A stretch of 30,815 nucleotides of DNA, taken from the IMG/VR virus record IMGVR_UViG_3300034407_004293, positions 1 through 30,815 of that record; one strand, given 5' to 3'. Below are positions 25,145-30,815 of the stretch, one piece after another (within the stretch, counting starts at the first letter, position 1; the number at the start of each line of letters is the position of its first letter). The position numbers and the translations under genes are program-made. This DNA is from a virus. Under the pieces are notes generated by a model, which was not told the DNA's origin, searched no databases, and saw only the letters and a list, made by a program, of their open reading frames with translations.

Positions 25145-26704
25145 TTATCCCTTGTAAATCCAAGGCAAGTAATTGCCTCTGGGGCTTGGCTGTTTTCTCT
25201 TATCCGAATACCCTGCCATACCCTTAATTCTAGTATCTAGTTTGCTACTGTCAGATCTCCACGCTGTAAACATGGCTTTTCTCTGCTCTACATCTCTTTG
25301 ATTAACTGTCAACGCCGTGTCCCTAATCCAACAAGCTATCGCCAAGGCAATAACCAAATCATCATTATAACCTCTCATCCCCTGCGGGCGACCATTGTGC
25401 CAAATGAAAGTTTTAATTTCATTGACCGTCCGCAGAGAGTTCAATGTAAGTAGTTTATTTCTGACGAACTCTTCAAGTTTTGATATGACAAGAGGTCGAG
25501 TTTTCATAGACATCGTAAAACCTGCTACCCCACCTCTTGCTTCAGCCGTAGATCGATCAACAAATTCATGTGTTGCTTTAAGGCTGTAGTAGATGTTATC
25601 ATATCCCATTTCTTCTATTTTGTTTAACACTCCATAGTCGTGATTATTTTCGATAACCAACAGTGCGTTATTATATTCACTAGCCATACTAACCAAAAGA
25701 GGGGCAAACATATCAGAGGTTACCTTCCCCTGATATTCTGCAACTTGTTCTAGAGTGTCTAGTCTAATAACCTGTGCAACACTAAAGTCACTACCATCGC
25801 CTCGTGCAACATCAGCGCACAAAAGATATTCCGCCCCCTCTTCTACTGGTTTCCAGATCCAATAGTTTCTATCAAAGCCAGTCCTGTGTTGTGGCTCGGA
25901 GCAGTTCTCTAACAATCTTTTTATATCATCGCCCGACACAACTGTATCACCGGATGCGTTAAAGTTGCATTCTAACTCTTGAGCTATTTCTCTTGCGGAC
26001 ATGTTTCTTGTTTCTTTTTCAAACCATTTTTCGTCTCTATCTGGGTGAACGGACCAGGGTAGCTTAATAGTAAAGAAATCGTTTTTATCTTCAATAGCCT
26101 CGCTGTAAGTTTTGTGAAACCAGTTACCAACACCATTAGGGGTTGATAGTGCAATACAGCGACCACCTGTTGATAGAGTAGGGTACAGACCTGCCCATAA
26201 TTCATCCATACCCTCAACAAAGGCTGCCTCATCAACGACTAAAAGAGACAGGGCTTCTGAACGACCAGCGTCGCCAGAAGTTGATGACGCCTTTACTTGG
26301 GAGCCATTGCTCAACTCAAATGATGTTCTGTTGTTGATGCTGATGTCTGCAATCTTCAACCAGGGCGGCAAATGTTTGTGAATAGATTTAATCTTCTTGA
26401 CTAAGTTCGTGGCTGTGCTTAGTTTTGTTGCAACAACTAAAACATTCTTTTCACGCTGAAACAACATCAACCAACAAACATAAGCTGCGACTGTAGTCGA
26501 AATGCCTAACTGCCTAGCTTTCAAGATGACGCTAAACCTGTGCTGTGTAAAATCTTTTAGTGCCTGTTTTTGAAAGTCATATAAATCAAAAGGGATCAAG
26601 CCCCTCATGGGCTCCGAGATTCTTGCGTAGGTATTAGTAAAGTAAACAGGGTCTCGTCCGCAACGAACAATCTCCTGCATTATCTCCTTTTTTGTGAGAG
26701 ACAT
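25145..26704 (-). CDS. Terminase large subunit (gp17-like)
   Basis: The 519-residue packaging motor has an N-terminal ATPase and a C-terminal nuclease. It shows the adenine-binding FDLYDFQKQAL region (38-49), Walker A-like KARQLGIST (62-70), Walker B LLVVDEAAF (154-162) with the catalytic Glu, and coupling motif ALSTPNG (185-191). The RNase H-like nuclease begins at about 295 with LLCADVARGDGSDFS (Asp298), followed by LLVIENNHDYG (Glu352) and YNDDLVIALAIA (Asp448/449). Length is slightly below T4 gp17 (610). The ATG directly abuts the TAA of the upstream gene. All key motifs appear intact. Confidence 0.95.
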   Translation of the reverse strand: MSLTKKEIMQEIVRCGRDPVYFTNTYARISEPMRGLIPFDLYDFQKQALKDFTQHRFSVILKARQLGISTTVAAYVCWLMLFQREKNVLVVATKLSTATNLVKKIKSIHKHLPPWLKIADISINNRTSFELSNGSQVKASSTSGDAGRSEALSLLVVDEAAFVEGMDELWAGLYPTLSTGGRCIALSTPNGVGNWFHKTYSEAIEDKNDFFTIKLPWSVHPDRDEKWFEKETRNMSAREIAQELECNFNASGDTVVSGDDIKRLLENCSEPQHRTGFDRNYWIWKPVEEGAEYLLCADVARGDGSDFSVAQVIRLDTLEQVAEYQGKVTSDMFAPLLVSMASEYNNALLVIENNHDYGVLNKIEEMGYDNIYYSLKATHEFVDRSTAEARGGVAGFTMSMKTRPLVISKLEEFVRNKLLTLNSLRTVNEIKTFIWHNGRPQGMRGYNDDLVIALAIACWIRDTALTVNQRDVEQRKAMFTAWRSDSSKLDTRIKGMAGYSDKRKQPSPRGNYLPWIYKG

Positions 26705-27259: not shown

Positions 27260-27674
27260 GCTGTTTCTTTCTCCTCTTTAATGCGATTTCTACTCGCTCT
27301 TCATCAGGTCGCCATCCGTCTTGCCATCTTTCCTCACGGTCGTGAACAAATTCGTAATAGCATTCTTGACAACATTTAAACCTATTCATATATAGGTCGT
27401 CTTTCATAGAAAATGAATATGTTTTACATACGGGACAAGTCCTATCATATTTTCTTTTGCTAGCTTTTTTTGAAATGAGAATCCCATCAACATCTACTTT
27501 GTCCTGATCGGACTCTCCTTTGGTAAGGGTGGCGTTTTTAAGTTGTGCTAAGTATTCTTTTTCTTTTTGCTCATCCCATTCAGATCTAAAGTCTTGCACT
27601 GTCTGTTTGCCATACTTTTCAGCAATAGCCTTTTCTACTGATGCGACATATTCCCAATCAAGTTTCTTGTTCAC
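27246..27674 (-). CDS. Zinc-ribbon protein of unknown function
   Basis: The 142-residue protein has a charged helical N-terminal half (about 1-55, starting LDWEYVASVEKAIAEKYG) and a four-cysteine ribbon: Cys80-x2-Cys83 (TCPVCKTYSFS) and Cys102-x2-Cys105 (CCQEC). A very basic C-terminus (ALKRRKKQHGK) follows. A ribbon plus a basic tail suggests nucleic-acid or protein binding. The start is GTG overlapping the upstream TGA (GTGA), with little SD, so translation is probably coupled. Similar small zinc-ribbon proteins occur near terminase genes in uncultured marine phages, as far as I recall; function unknown. Confidence 0.6.
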   Translation of the reverse strand: MNKKLDWEYVASVEKAIAEKYGKQTVQDFRSEWDEQKEKEYLAQLKNATLTKGESDQDKVDVDGILISKKASKRKYDRTCPVCKTYSFSMKDDLYMNRFKCCQECYYEFVHDREERWQDGWRPDEERVEIALKRRKKQHGKY

Positions 27675-28051
27675 TGTGGATACACCGCATGTACAATACC
27701 AATAGAAACACCAACTCCCACTGCTAGCCCAGTAAACAAGCCAACTACACCCCTGTTCCTGTCAAACCAAGAGTTATTTTTTCTAAGTTGTTGTTCCAGT
27801 TTAGATATGGATAATTTGTATGTCTCTTGCATCTGGGTGCAAACCTTTTTATCCACTTGACACTCAGCCATCTGAGCGTTATTATCAATTTTTTTCTGGA
27901 GCATATTACGAAAGTCTTCTTCGCTCATCAGTATGCCAACATAGCTACTACCATCCTGCTCAACAACCGCTGGGCGAGGCTTGAATTTTACAACCTCTGC
28001 CGCAGCGGCGTTGAATGAAAATAATAGTGCAAGTACAACCGTTGTTTTCAT
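27671..28051 (-). CDS. Exported, C-terminally anchored small protein (possible lysis or envelope factor)
   Basis: The 126 residues start with a Sec-type signal peptide (about 1-19, ending NAAAA) with no lipobox Cys. A periplasmic part follows, helical from about 45 to 95 (coiled coil near 78-92) with two Cys at about 64 and 71, and then one C-terminal membrane helix (about 102-122, VVGLFTGLAVGVGVSIGIVH). This predicts a protein anchored in the inner membrane with a periplasmic coil. Unimolecular spanins have a C-terminal anchor but a lipobox at the N-terminus, which is missing here. It lies one base after the tubulin-like gene. Confidence 0.6.
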   Translation of the reverse strand: MKTTVVLALLFSFNAAAAEVVKFKPRPAVVEQDGSSYVGILMSEEDFRNMLQKKIDNNAQMAECQVDKKVCTQMQETYKLSISKLEQQLRKNNSWFDRNRGVVGLFTGLAVGVGVSIGIVHAVYPQ

Positions 28052-28052
28052 T

Positions 28053-29195
28053 TTACTTTAGGAACTTTTTCAAACCCTCAATACGTTTGCCAGGTCTCTT
28101 AAGTCCACTTACCAAAGTGTAGGTGACGAGCTTGTCTCTCTTGGCGTCTTCATAAATACCACGATGAACAATCGCACCACCAGTCAAAGCTGCCAAGGTA
28201 TCAAAGCCAAACTCGATGTTGTCCATTAGACCTACTGTTTCTTCAAAGATCACTTCCCCGCCCACAACAATACAGGCAGCACCTGAAGCGGTGGTTAGGT
28301 CAAACCCCTCGGCAAGAAGAGTTTTCTCTAGATTCTTCTTAAGGGCGGTCGATACAGCAGTTTCATTCTCCGGCTCTTTGACTGTGGTTACACCCATAAT
28401 CATACAACCTGGCTGCTTCATAATACTGTCGTAGTCTGTGGCATCAAAGGTTGTGTACTCAGAGTCCTTGTTTGCCAATACGTTGAACACATGAAACAAA
28501 CCAGCGACCGTGTTATTAATGGTCCTCCAGAACTTTTTAACTGTGAGCTTAGGATAAAGCTTTTTAATCTTTTCGTTGTCCACCATAATAAGTGGAGCGA
28601 TCTTTCCTTCCTCTGCGAGCCCGCAAAGTTGAGTGATGCGATTGTGAGCATTCTCTGCAACCGTTGGTGATGCGGATTCTCCAGCCGTTGGGAGTGAGGC
28701 AACCACACCAACACGCTCATCAACGTTCTCAACGCCGATGTAGGTGAAGTACTTCTTGGCTACTTTGATAAGGGTGTTAACTGTGCCGCCACCTGAGCCG
28801 CCAGAAACACCTAGGCAAATCAAGATGCGATCAACATTGTTCCCAAAGATCTCACGGAACTTATTAAATACCTCTTGCTCCTTGCGCTCAATAGCCGCCT
28901 CAGCTTTGGCTTGGTCTTTACCTGCACCTTGCTCGCCATGCTCATCGACTAAGAACTTTTGGTTCTCTGGTAAATCAAGTCCGTTTAGATCTGACTTTGC
29001 CGTGTTTACCGCAACAGTCTTTGTGTAGCCCATATCATAAAAGGCTTTAGCCATACGACCACCGCCTTGACCTGCGCCAACAATTGCATACACTAAAGCA
29101 CCACCTGATTTATCCTCAACAGACTCTTCCTCTTCGTTTAGTTCAGGATCATAGTCCTCGATATCTAACTCAGGAATATCTAAATCAATAGTCAT
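28053..29195 (-). CDS. FtsZ/tubulin-superfamily GTPase (phage tubulin)
   Basis: The 380-residue protein has the tubulin/FtsZ GTP-binding loops in order: T1 VGAGQGGGRMAK (39-50), T2 NTAKSD (64-69), T3 GEQGAGKD (87-94), T4 GVSGGSGGGT (129-138), T5 PTAGES (169-174), T6 VDNEKI (205-210), and a T7 region TTFDATDYDSIM (248-259) keeping two Asp (251, 254) at the catalytic positions. The T4 signature GGGTGTG is altered to SGGSGGG, and the T7 Asn is replaced. An acidic ~30-residue N-terminal extension precedes the fold, and the C-terminus is short and basic, unlike the acidic tail of PhuZ. It probably forms GTP-dependent filaments. The start is ATG with AGAGGAG six bases upstream; it overlaps the basic-protein gene as ATGA. 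Confidence 0.85.
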   Translation of the reverse strand: MTIDLDIPELDIEDYDPELNEEEESVEDKSGGALVYAIVGAGQGGGRMAKAFYDMGYTKTVAVNTAKSDLNGLDLPENQKFLVDEHGEQGAGKDQAKAEAAIERKEQEVFNKFREIFGNNVDRILICLGVSGGSGGGTVNTLIKVAKKYFTYIGVENVDERVGVVASLPTAGESASPTVAENAHNRITQLCGLAEEGKIAPLIMVDNEKIKKLYPKLTVKKFWRTINNTVAGLFHVFNVLANKDSEYTTFDATDYDSIMKQPGCMIMGVTTVKEPENETAVSTALKKNLEKTLLAEGFDLTTASGAACIVVGGEVIFEETVGLMDNIEFGFDTLAALTGGAIVHRGIYEDAKRDKLVTYTLVSGLKRPGKRIEGLKKFLK

Positions 29196-29410
29196 TTGGT
29201 TCTCCTCTTTTTTGGGGCTGCTTTCGCCCTCTTTGTTTTTGTTTTTTTTTGCACAGGCTCAGTCTCTTTAATCACCTGTGTTCTTTTCTGAGATTGTTTA
29301 AGTGCCCTGATAGCATCAGCCTTTTTAGCTTCTTCAGCCTCAAGGCTTTGTTGTTTTTGTTGCTCCAGTGCAATCGCAACTCTTTGCTTTCTTCTTTTCG
29401 GTGCTGGCAT
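29192..29410 (-). CDS. Very basic Lys/Arg-rich small protein
   Basis: The 72-residue protein is about one third Lys plus Arg, with an Ala/Gln/Glu helix in the middle (about 13-40) and a histone-tail-like C-terminus (KKTKTKRAKAAPKKRRTK). It probably binds nucleic acid or an acidic partner. The ATG has GGAG seven bases upstream, and its TGA overlaps the ATG of the tubulin-like gene, so the two are translationally coupled. The acidic N-terminus of the tubulin is an obvious but untested partner. No family is recognised. Confidence 0.6.
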   Translation of the reverse strand: MPAPKRRKQRVAIALEQQKQQSLEAEEAKKADAIRALKQSQKRTQVIKETEPVQKKTKTKRAKAAPKKRRTK

Positions 29411-29422
29411 AATCTATCTCCA

Positions 29423-29737
29423 TCAAATGTCTAACTCTTCGTGAAGTCTAATAAGTGCGTTTAGTCTGTCTTCTCGGTTGTCTATTTTCTTTGTATCTTC
29501 TAGACGACTCTCGAATACCTTCTTAACAGCCCCTATCTTATCCTTCTCTAAGTCAGCCCTTAACTTACTTTCTTTAGCATGGATCTTTACTTGTGTTAAG
29601 ACATCATCAACAACAGGTTGGTTTTTTTCCGCCGGCTTAACCAAGCGATACACATAATAGACAATCGCAACGATCAGCAAAGCTGCCGCTACAGTTGACC
29701 AAAAGTATTGTTTTACTTTAAGCTTTAACCAATTCAT
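29423..29737 (-). CDS. Inner-membrane-anchored coiled-coil protein (i-spanin-like)
   Basis: The 104-residue protein has one N-terminal membrane helix (about 13-33, FWSTVAAALLIVAIVYYVYR) preceded by basic residues, then a charged helix with coiled-coil character to the end (about 45-102). This N-in topology and coil match i-spanins, which pair with an outer-membrane lipoprotein to fuse envelopes at lysis. No partner o-spanin is visible. It overlaps the holin-like gene by four bases (ATGA), supporting a lysis unit. A membrane tether unrelated to lysis is possible. Confidence 0.5.
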   Translation of the reverse strand: MNWLKLKVKQYFWSTVAAALLIVAIVYYVYRLVKPAEKNQPVVDDVLTQVKIHAKESKLRADLEKDKIGAVKKVFESRLEDTKKIDNREDRLNALIRLHEELDI

Positions 29738-29919
29738 TTACCATGCTTCCACTTGGATGCAATATCTGCTGCGCCTTGAAGCCCAATATAGGCTAGCGAA
29801 ACAGCAACCCACTGATCACCAGTAAGCATACCAAGTGGCAACAATACAGTAGATGTGCCCCAAACAATTAACTTTCTTGATGCCCATTTGCCGAGCAGTT
29901 TATCAAGTTTACCCGCCAT
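29734..29919 (-). CDS. Holin-like small membrane protein
   Basis: The 61-residue protein has a basic N-terminus (AGKLDKLLGKWASRK) followed by two hydrophobic segments (about 17-33 and 36-52) separated by a GDQ turn, and a charged tail (SKWKHGK). Size and topology fit a class II-like holin of the kind ending in QGAADIA..WK. Holins permeabilise the inner membrane to time lysis. The ATG overlaps the TAA of the upstream gene (TAATG), and an i-spanin-like gene overlaps its end. There is no endolysin in the window, so the role is inferred. Confidence 0.5.
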   Translation of the reverse strand: MAGKLDKLLGKWASRKLIVWGTSTVLLPLGMLTGDQWVAVSLAYIGLQGAADIASKWKHGK

Positions 29920-30815
29920 TATTTTTCCTCAAGTGCAAACGGTGCCTTGGGTTTATTCCAGTCAATCTCGCCTTGTGCCAAAGCTTTGGCAGCAATCTTG
30001 TCTGCACCTTTGACTCTATCTGGGTCAATCACAGGCATGTCAACTCTATCAGGAGCGCCGGCTGGTAGCTTAAAAGAAATTTGACCAAGATTATCTACCA
30101 TCTTCTTGATGGCGGCATCGACCGCTGCATCACCTTTTTGTCCTGTAAACTTCTCTAAGGCTTGCATCACATCTACAGCCTTCAAAAACTTGTTACCTTC
30201 TCTAGCCAACTTACTTAGTTCAGCACGAATTGGACCTTCTTTGAATTGGTCAAAACCACCAGTGCCCTCTTTACCTTGCATAATACCCAACTTACCAACA
30301 GTAATGGCATTAAGCAATCTGATTAAGTCGGTGCCTGGGAAATCTACCAAATATCCCCCAACCTCCTTAGAGGGGTCAACCATGCTTGTTGCTACCCATC
30401 TGTGGTGTCCGTCCATAATGTGATTATCGTTACTAATAAATGCGCCCAAGTTACCACCAGTCTCCATCTTGCCTGCCAACATGGAAATAGCCATCCCCAT
30501 CGCCTTACCAATATTCATACTTGACTGCGATGGTTTAAGTTGAGATACTGGGAAGGTAGCATTTGGTGTCACATCAATCACGTCATCTTTTGGATCTCCA
30601 TCCTGCCTACCCTTAGTCACATTTTGTTTGGCATCGCTCGCATCAGCGGCAACGTCCGATAGCTTAAGAGGGAACTCTTCTGGGTCCACTTTCTCGTTGA
30701 GCAATACTTTTTTAACTGCCCGAGTAACGGACTCTCTTAATTTTTGTTTTCTTTTGGATTTTAAAACTTGTTCTTTAATAATTCTAGCAAGTCTTTGCTT
30801 GTTAATCTTTTTCAT
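29919..30815 (-). CDS. ParB/Srx-motif protein of unknown role
   Basis: The 298-residue protein has a very basic helical N-terminus (1-42) in two parts, resembling the N-terminal helix of the possible core protein at 20450-20848, then a polar linker. A domain with FPVSQLKPSQ (88-97), GAFISNDNHIMDGHHRWVAT (124-143) follows. DGHHRW is the phosphate-binding signature of the ParB/sulfiredoxin fold, seen in ParB CTPases, nucleases and kinases. Residues about 150-298 are helical and unassigned; I see no helix-turn-helix. The ATG is the last three bases of the window, so upstream signals are not visible. Function could be DNA binding, nuclease or a packaged head protein. Confidence 0.65.
   Translation of the reverse strand: MKKINKQRLARIIKEQVLKSKRKQKLRESVTRAVKKVLLNEKVDPEEFPLKLSDVAADASDAKQNVTKGRQDGDPKDDVIDVTPNATFPVSQLKPSQSSMNIGKAMGMAISMLAGKMETGGNLGAFISNDNHIMDGHHRWVATSMVDPSKEVGGYLVDFPGTDLIRLLNAITVGKLGIMQGKEGTGGFDQFKEGPIRAELSKLAREGNKFLKAVDVMQALEKFTGQKGDAAVDAAIKKMVDNLGQISFKLPAGAPDRVDMPVIDPDRVKGADKIAAKALAQGEIDWNKPKAPFALEEK

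Follow-up and report, generated by a model that had tools for sequence, protein, structure and literature searches.

A tubulin of large T4-like phages with a sister family on planctomycete chromosomes and recurrent polybasic companions

The tubulin gene and its neighbours

The window, by which we mean the whole stretch of DNA that was analysed, is a 30.8-kb virus record that encodes a 380-residue protein of the tubulin/FtsZ superfamily. The genes for the large terminase subunit (terL), portal, head protease, major head protein, tail sheath, tube and baseplate are found on the same strand as the tubulin gene, and terL, portal, head protease, major head protein and tail sheath are located downstream of it. 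An earlier reading of this DNA from its letters alone had placed the tubulin in a T4-like head and packaging setting, and this was correct. The features that matter here are the following.

28053..29195, minus strand: tubulin/FtsZ-superfamily protein, 380 aa, of the phage-planctomycete subfamily (Pfam, AlphaFold2 model, match to the TubZ fold)
29151..29177, minus strand: N-terminal motif of the tubulin, IPELDIEDY, residues 7-15 (conserved in the aligned rows)
28785..28805, minus strand: T4 (signature) loop of the tubulin, SGGSGGG, residues 131-137 (aligned columns)
28428..28451, minus strand: T7 loop of the tubulin, TFDATDYD, residues 249-256, including D251 and D254 (alignment)
29192..29410, minus strand: 72-aa polybasic protein, its stop overlapping the tubulin start (24 K/R, 7 D/E; pI 11.2)
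29423..29737, minus strand: 104-aa protein (tm104) with an N-terminal TM segment and a charged coil-like region (one TM-like window, 15-33)
29734..29919, minus strand: 61-aa small protein (tm61), a conserved upstream gene, holin-like by position only
27671..28051, minus strand: 126-aa protein with a signal-peptide-like N-terminus and a C-terminal TM segment (TM-like windows 5-23 and 102-120)
25145..26704, minus strand: terminase large subunit, adjacent packaging block (PF03237, 50.4 bits; phrog_2, 4.5e-51)

The assignment to the tubulin superfamily is borne out by several lines of evidence. In Pfam, both PF00091 (36.1 bits, curated cut-off 33) and the TubZ-like C-terminal domain PF22453 (28.2 bits, cut-off 26) exceed their cut-offs, and at E 0.001 the two profiles match 31 of 31 and 30 of 31 phage tubulin rows, respectively; a profile search of three long phage records detected PF22453 in two of them. 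A PDB profile search found the TubZ/RepX chain 4ei7 (E 4.9e-18), and structure prediction with AlphaFold2 returned a tubulin fold (pLDDT 87.8, pTM 0.88), with residues 15-29 below 50. When this model was compared with known structures in VIA-align, TubZ (4ei7_B) came out on top among the matches listed (Z 37.8, rmsd 2.5, 337 residues aligned), while CetZ2 (4b45_A) scored Z 34.9 and FtsZ about 31.

The sequence-only reading had described all seven superfamily loops as conserved; this holds for the T1, T4, GAG and T7 stretches, which are the ones that were looked at. Both T7 aspartates, D251 and D254, are present in every one of the 56 aligned family rows (16 phage, 40 bacterial). The unusual T4 signature is indeed SGGSGGG. 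It is a minor drift: other phage clades mostly have GGTGGGS, and the bacterial rows most often have G131 and T134. The predicted fold, the family membership and the conservation of catalytic residues are thereby established. Judged from these residues, the protein is probably an active GTPase, as had been proposed, and it may be expected to polymerise into filaments. The tubulin has a pI of 4.9, and its charges are distributed much as described: residues 1-32 hold 14 D/E against one K/R and the last 25 residues seven K/R against one D/E. The acidic N-terminus also carries a conserved motif, [IL]PxL[DE][IL]E, in which P8, L10, I12, E13 and D14 are unchanged in 31 of 31 phage rows; a wider form of it is present in all 16 phage rows and in 36 of the 40 bacterial rows. 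This N-terminal motif (LDIPxL) may resemble the C-terminal peptide of FtsZ.

The immediate neighbours of the tubulin are small genes. Downstream, the 126-aa gene accompanies the tubulin in 80 of 80 relatives (in part in L010 and L074). The 104-aa gene, whose product has what we take to be a spanin-like architecture, adjoins the tubulin in 72 of the 80, the other eight loci beginning within the tubulin. The 61-aa protein has no 19-aa window that reaches the TM threshold, and its membrane nature is unsure. A scan of the window for T4 late promoters yielded a single TATAAATA on the plus strand, with 1.11 expected by chance.

Phage relatives and the slot ahead of the tubulin

Relatives of the window tubulin occur on at least 101 distinct IMG/VR viral contigs, and the gene is therefore not a chance occurrence. 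A first scan of IMG/VR gave 95 related stretches out of 103 candidates, of which 80 (84-100% identical) were kept, and further scans reached relatives at 67, 63, 54 and 51% identity; a tblastn search of INPHARED with the tubulin gave nothing at E 0.01. Each of eight phage records tested (8/8) encodes one tubulin. The window itself (L001) is left out of all counts of relatives, and the 72 phage loci and 40 bacterial copies on which the comparisons below are based contain near-copies (L046-L048 and L066/L067; L179/L182 and L197/L199/L213), so that the counts refer to loci and not to independent lineages. In one relative (L035:829-1956) the tubulin frame ends 242 residues from the usual start and the match continues beyond, which is either a true break or a sequencing error.

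The terminase and major capsid of the window are less than 60% identical to those of the closest phage records, namely Flavobacterium phage immuto, Microcystis phage Mel-JY01 and an uncultured 484-kb phage. A relative that also encodes the tubulin is G001, a record of 178,630 bases that may be closed, as its first 98 bases are repeated at its end. It matches 31 of 33 window proteins that were compared, and the most conserved of these is the tubulin (91%), followed by tm61 (79%), p117 (77%), the protease (75%) and TerL (72%), with the major capsid at 61%; the rank of the tubulin suggests that it does something central. Gene turnover between the compared phages is high, and tm104 is mostly 40-55% identical among relatives in which the tubulin is about 91% identical. 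In Mel-JY01 and in LR756508, members of the same broad phage group, similar-looking membrane genes lie before terL by eye, with no tubulin there (L083:7012-8971 and L084:7580-8295). Such tubulin-less cassettes raise the possibility that the tubulin is a later entrant into an older membrane-gene cassette.

The 72-aa ORF upstream of the tubulin overlaps it by four bases (ATGA); the overlap as well as the positions and lengths of the two ORFs agree with the sequence-only reading. The basic protein has no match better than E 0.047 in Pfam, PHROGs or NCBIfam. As a general partner it failed: the pairing had been expected to recur beside homologues in related phages, and among the 72 relatives in which both the 104-aa gene and the tubulin are visible, the gap between these two genes is 60 bases or less in 65, which leaves no room for a basic ORF, so that a general pair of tubulin and basic gene was rejected. 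A homologue of the 72-aa protein adjoins the tubulin in three of the 72 (L002, L071 and L072, the last identical to the window). The coupled basic gene is thus real yet rare, and in phages the polycation must be dispensable or supplied elsewhere.

A broader idea of a basic partner fares better. A larger gap is found in the seven remaining relatives, and six of these seven contain a basic ORF: besides the three homologues, there is a 64-aa basic ORF in L020 and there are related basic ORFs of 101 and 108 aa in L045 and L050, while L018 has a gap without any ORF of 25 aa. By eye these fall into three distinct types (window/L002/L071/L072, L020 and L045/L050), all of which pass a charge threshold that six of 121 small ORFs of G001 also pass. 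That three of three types should do so by chance is unlikely, about 1 in 8,000 if they are independent, with a threshold that was set afterwards and a background of one genome. A further caveat is that purine-rich ribosome-binding sites just ahead of the tubulin favour Lys and Arg codons at the end of any ORF that overlaps it. In outgroup phages, a small ORF with a lysine-rich tail lies directly downstream of the tubulin in four of 19 loci (L144, L162, L167 and L168), the one in L144 being under the charge threshold with a net charge of +8; L161 and L169 also have basic ORFs that stood out. Short basic C-tails are seen in L041, L053 and L065. Thus, while the 72-aa gene itself is rare, the idea of a basic partner is supported by the other ORFs in the slot and by a bacterial sister family in which the tubulin often has a basic tail as part of the protein, at that same end.

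A bacterial sister family with fused basic tails

A genome collection described by its search tool as one genome per each of 84,980 species was scanned for cellular relatives. With a single protein as query none of 57 candidates was related, and an alignment-based scan retrieved 36 related loci among 212 candidates, mostly 49-53% identical to the window tubulin from residue 7 onwards and including paralogues at 31-42%. The titles place 35 of these loci in the Planctomycetota, at the level of the phylum or of a group within it, and the remaining locus in the Omnitrophota; several come from one genome. Metagenome-assembled genomes (MAGs) account for nearly all of them; CP070715.1, a 2.96-Mb record with the title chromosome, contains one. 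By eye, gapA-, pgk- and rpe-like genes are found near the tubulin in six loci and an accD-like gene in six, and such housekeeping-type neighbours argue that in those loci the tubulin is chromosomal and not prophage-borne.

The distribution of the family within the phylum is uneven. It is carried by 28 of 161 genomes of one order of the Phycisphaerae (the order of G009), by 20 of 397 genomes of the class, all of them on the list of that order, and by five of 294 genomes, one of them weak, in a sample of the phylum. No FtsZ over the TIGR00065 cut-off was found in the 161 genomes of the order, while 13 of 14 controls were positive; weak TIGR00065 matches of at most 58 bits occur in 27 of the 161, in genomes that carry the tubulin family. 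In ten of ten planctomycete genomes tested, the sister-family tubulin is the sole protein over the PF00091 cut-off. The Omnitrophota genome, which may be mis-binned, has a canonical FtsZ (175 bits) as well. With so patchy a distribution, and with the reservation that MAGs are incomplete, the family cannot serve as the division protein throughout the order. Phycisphaerae are stated to show a division that resembles binary fission without FtsZ, and whether another protein drives it is asked in the same paper (PMC6952346). The sister-family tubulin is a candidate for such a driver, though it is present in 28 of the 161 genomes.

In the bacterial copies the polycation is often part of the tubulin itself. 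Tails were counted in 40 copies no shorter than 330 aa, 39 of them planctomycete and one from the Omnitrophota, and a tail was defined as an N-terminal extension with a K/R content of 28% or more and a D/E content of 6% or less. By this definition 21 of the 40 have a fused, histone-H1-like N-terminal tail of 48-271 residues that ends right before the conserved motif, the longest (271 aa) containing 101 K/R and two D/E. Among the other 19, eight have 20 residues or fewer before the motif, seven have extensions that fall outside the definition and four lack a match to the motif. Strongly basic 60-residue windows occur in 16 of 29 tubulin ORFs versus five of the 304 remaining ORFs of 150 aa or more in the same loci, and several of these five look spurious. 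L216 and the second copy of L176 (under 330 aa, with masked letters) were dropped from the tail count and the tree, as were, for want of an ATG start, L186, the first copy of L203, L206, L209, L210, L220 and L228; of the dropped copies, L186 and L228 show a basic stretch ahead of the motif. The basic tails are of low complexity, which makes homology not demonstrable and convergence possible, and the thresholds were chosen after the sequences had been viewed. With this proviso, the link of the tubulin family to polybasic tails is wider than the coupled gene alone.

Other fusions were seen among the planctomycete proteins. At two loci (L187:9233-11029 and L202:8878-10581) a second tubulin copy also contains an AAA+ lid domain (PF25601; 63.3 and 57.5 bits) as a fusion. 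One protein (L247, G165:C45) begins, by eye, with an FHA-like region, after which it matches the tubulin profile weakly (E 1.1e-6).

Relation to known tubulins and possible roles

The phage tubulins known to us are PhuZ and TubZ. In the tree, the 16 phage rows (support 90/58) and the 40 bacterial rows (95/98; labelled planctomycete, and including L193, which is titled Omnitrophota) form two sister sides, with the TubZ-like, PhuZ, CetZ-like and FtsZ rows outside, most of them on long branches; with the support for the phage clade at 90/58, transfer between the two sides may have gone either way. This is a subfamily distinct from PhuZ and TubZ, with members in large T4-like phages and on the chromosomes of FtsZ-less Phycisphaerae. 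A description of it was not found in the open-licence PMC literature that was searched.

The Phycisphaerae tubulins are the nearest of kin, mostly 49-53% identical near full length and sharing the N-terminal motif, and they differ from the phage protein in their frequent fused tails and their housekeeping-type neighbours. FtsZ belongs to the same superfamily, yet an identity with FtsZ was rejected, the window tubulin scoring 51.7 bits with TIGR00065 against a cut-off of 295.2. Tubulin_2/FtsZl1 was likewise rejected for the window protein (PF13809, 13.6 bits, cut-off 27); at E 0.001 this profile matches 14 of 31 phage rows (best 3.1e-7), and L193 reaches 26.7 bits. CetZ is similar in fold, whereas the single CetZ-like row of the tree, from Halorubrum, sits on a long branch and outside the family. 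PhuZ is likewise a phage-encoded tubulin of a large myophage, but the claim that the window protein is unlike it has been upheld: the match to phrog_4733 is poor (E 0.063, 13.4 bits), the BFVD model of PhuZ from phage Noxifer aligns with a TMq of 0.52, and PhuZ sits on a very long and far branch of the tree, so that PhuZ identity was rejected. The absence of PhuZ from the PDB sequence and fold matches listed carries no weight, and the phage nucleus shell family phrog_4795 matched none of eight records, the positive controls likewise being without a match.

The relation to TubZ is more intricate, and the claim of unlikeness stood in part. TubZ is the nearest solved fold among the matches listed and shares PF22453, and in four Bacillota plasmid loci it too has a small gene just upstream that overlaps or nearly does. 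In contrast, the window tubulin is 19-22% identical to TubZ, has a separate position in the tree and a conserved N-terminal PxLxxE motif, and has a polybasic module where TubZ has a winged-helix adaptor. A TubR-sized gene was not found directly upstream, where the window has the 72-aa basic ORF and a TM protein and the Bacillota plasmid loci have 327-348 coding bases. Three stretches of 4.0-4.5 kb around three tubulin genes contain no direct-repeat family of more than two copies that would resemble tubC, a distant site being possible. TubZ moves DNA (PMC5322520), and its partner TubY has a lysine cluster that assists nonspecific DNA binding, and acts on lipids as well (PMC7762940). Like the basic proteins described here, TubY is a polybasic partner of a tubulin-type filament; unlike the 72-aa protein, for which Pfam, PHROGs and NCBIfam gave nothing better than E 0.047, it is MerR-like with an HTH and a coiled coil.

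Together, the TubZ-like fold, the recurring polycation and the precedent of TubY suggest a filament that acts on DNA. In the interpretation that we favour tentatively, its chances being somewhat short of even, this is a new tubulin subfamily whose GTP-driven filaments act on DNA and are coupled to it by a fused or a separate polycation. Filaments would grow by GTP-dependent head-to-tail assembly, with hydrolysis requiring the T7 aspartates of the next subunit. Attachment to DNA would be electrostatic, through a polycation beside the N-terminal motif and with no TubR-tubC centromere adaptor; the polycation would be the fused H1-like tail in many bacteria and, in some phages, the basic protein from the separate, coupled gene, while elsewhere there are perhaps other basic proteins or none. 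In the phage, the filament might position or organise replicated DNA around the time of packaging. That the protein hydrolyses GTP, polymerises and binds DNA is inferred, as are the timing and the purpose. Against a DNA tether, polycations bind membranes too, and they may hold filaments together in bundles. If an H1-like tail that is covalently fused to a tubulin does bind DNA, cytoskeleton and genome would be linked by a new and simple means. A more ambitious formulation, which we hold to be doubtful, is that of a tubulin class anchored to DNA by a histone-H1-like polycation without a centromere adaptor, resident on the chromosome in part of an FtsZ-less Phycisphaerae order, where it could serve chromosome segregation or FtsZ-less fission, and held by large phages in a stripped version, in some with the polycation split off into a translationally coupled gene.

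Several other explanations have to be weighed against the DNA-acting filament. The tubulin could work alone or with other partners and the basic ORF be an unrelated accessory gene, such as a virion DNA-condensing protein, that is its neighbour by chance; its absence beside 65 of 72 relatives and the high gene turnover speak for this, whereas the ORF in the slot is basic in all six loci that have one (three types by eye, the gap of L018 being without an ORF) and many bacterial relatives carry a basic tail as a fusion, so that we consider mere adjacency unlikely. A role at the inner membrane is rather more unlikely in our view. There the filament, together with its neighbours, would place or time lysis proteins or reshape the envelope, with the polycation binding anionic lipid. 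Wherever both sides are visible, the tubulin of the window clade is indeed flanked on one side by a coil-like protein with a single TM segment and on the other by a signal/TM protein; the tubulin-less membrane genes of Mel-JY01 and LR756508 look similar by eye, and the lysine tail of TubY acts on lipids too (PMC7762940). However, tm104 is far less conserved than the tubulin, and outside the window clade (L144, L148, L160 and L161) the tubulin has, by eye, ClpP-, nucleotidyltransferase-, IscA- and DnaE-like neighbours, for which reason the membrane genes were dropped as its fixed partner.

It is improbable that the phage protein interferes with a host tubulin, co-assembling with or poisoning the host filament and thereby blocking division. 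Its identity of about 50% to planctomycete chromosomal tubulins, in ten of ten genomes the sole PF00091 protein, would fit this, but the strong conservation of the T7 residues favours an active motor over a dominant negative, and the tmRNA tag of G001 (ANDDFQLALAA) is unlike those of eight of eight planctomycetes. Partition of a plasmid-like prophage in the manner of TubZ, for which the fold and PF22453 speak, is very improbable given the lack of nearby repeat families, an upstream gene that is not TubR-sized as it is in the four Bacillota loci, and a position among structural genes; in addition, the PF00589 integrase was found in none of five long records (14 of 14 controls positive), a result with which a plasmid-prophage is still compatible. 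A PhuZ-like spindle that centres a phage nucleus has in its favour that both are tubulins of large phages, and with the phrog_4733 and Noxifer comparisons against it we give it hardly any credence.

The host question was approached through tmRNA. G001 encodes a tmRNA (L092:4108-4430, minus strand) and four tRNAs. Seven of the eight planctomycete tags have the form GNYQ..MAA (GNYQLQMAA, GNYQLRMAA, GNYQLAMAA and GNYQYAMAA) and the eighth is GNSMLRMAA, and a blastn comparison of the phage and planctomycete genes gave a 28-base match only. The Phycisphaerae order as the phage host is thus unsupported by the tag and gene comparison.

Several further observations concern G001 and the outgroup phages. 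Close to the tubulin in two outgroup phages (L144:5185-8479 and L148:4945-8702) there is a gene for 160 aa, along with two that by eye are ClpP-like protease and nucleotidyltransferase-like genes. G001 encodes an FtsH-type M41 protease (L086:5888-7714), an M50 protease (L089:7762-8583), a chaperonin (L085:17702-19288) and a DNA polymerase III alpha subunit (L086:14360-17773), all on the minus strand. By loose patterns, 11 of its ORFs (L089-L093) share an N-terminal peptide like MK[IL]TKSQLRKIIKEE and six an N-terminal peptide like KKLLTEWRKFLKE, with differing bodies in both cases; these peptides resemble the T4 capsid-targeting peptide that is cut by the head protease, and by that analogy the ORFs may encode internal head proteins. 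A 298-aa ORF in the window (29919-30815) has a start similar to these shared peptides.
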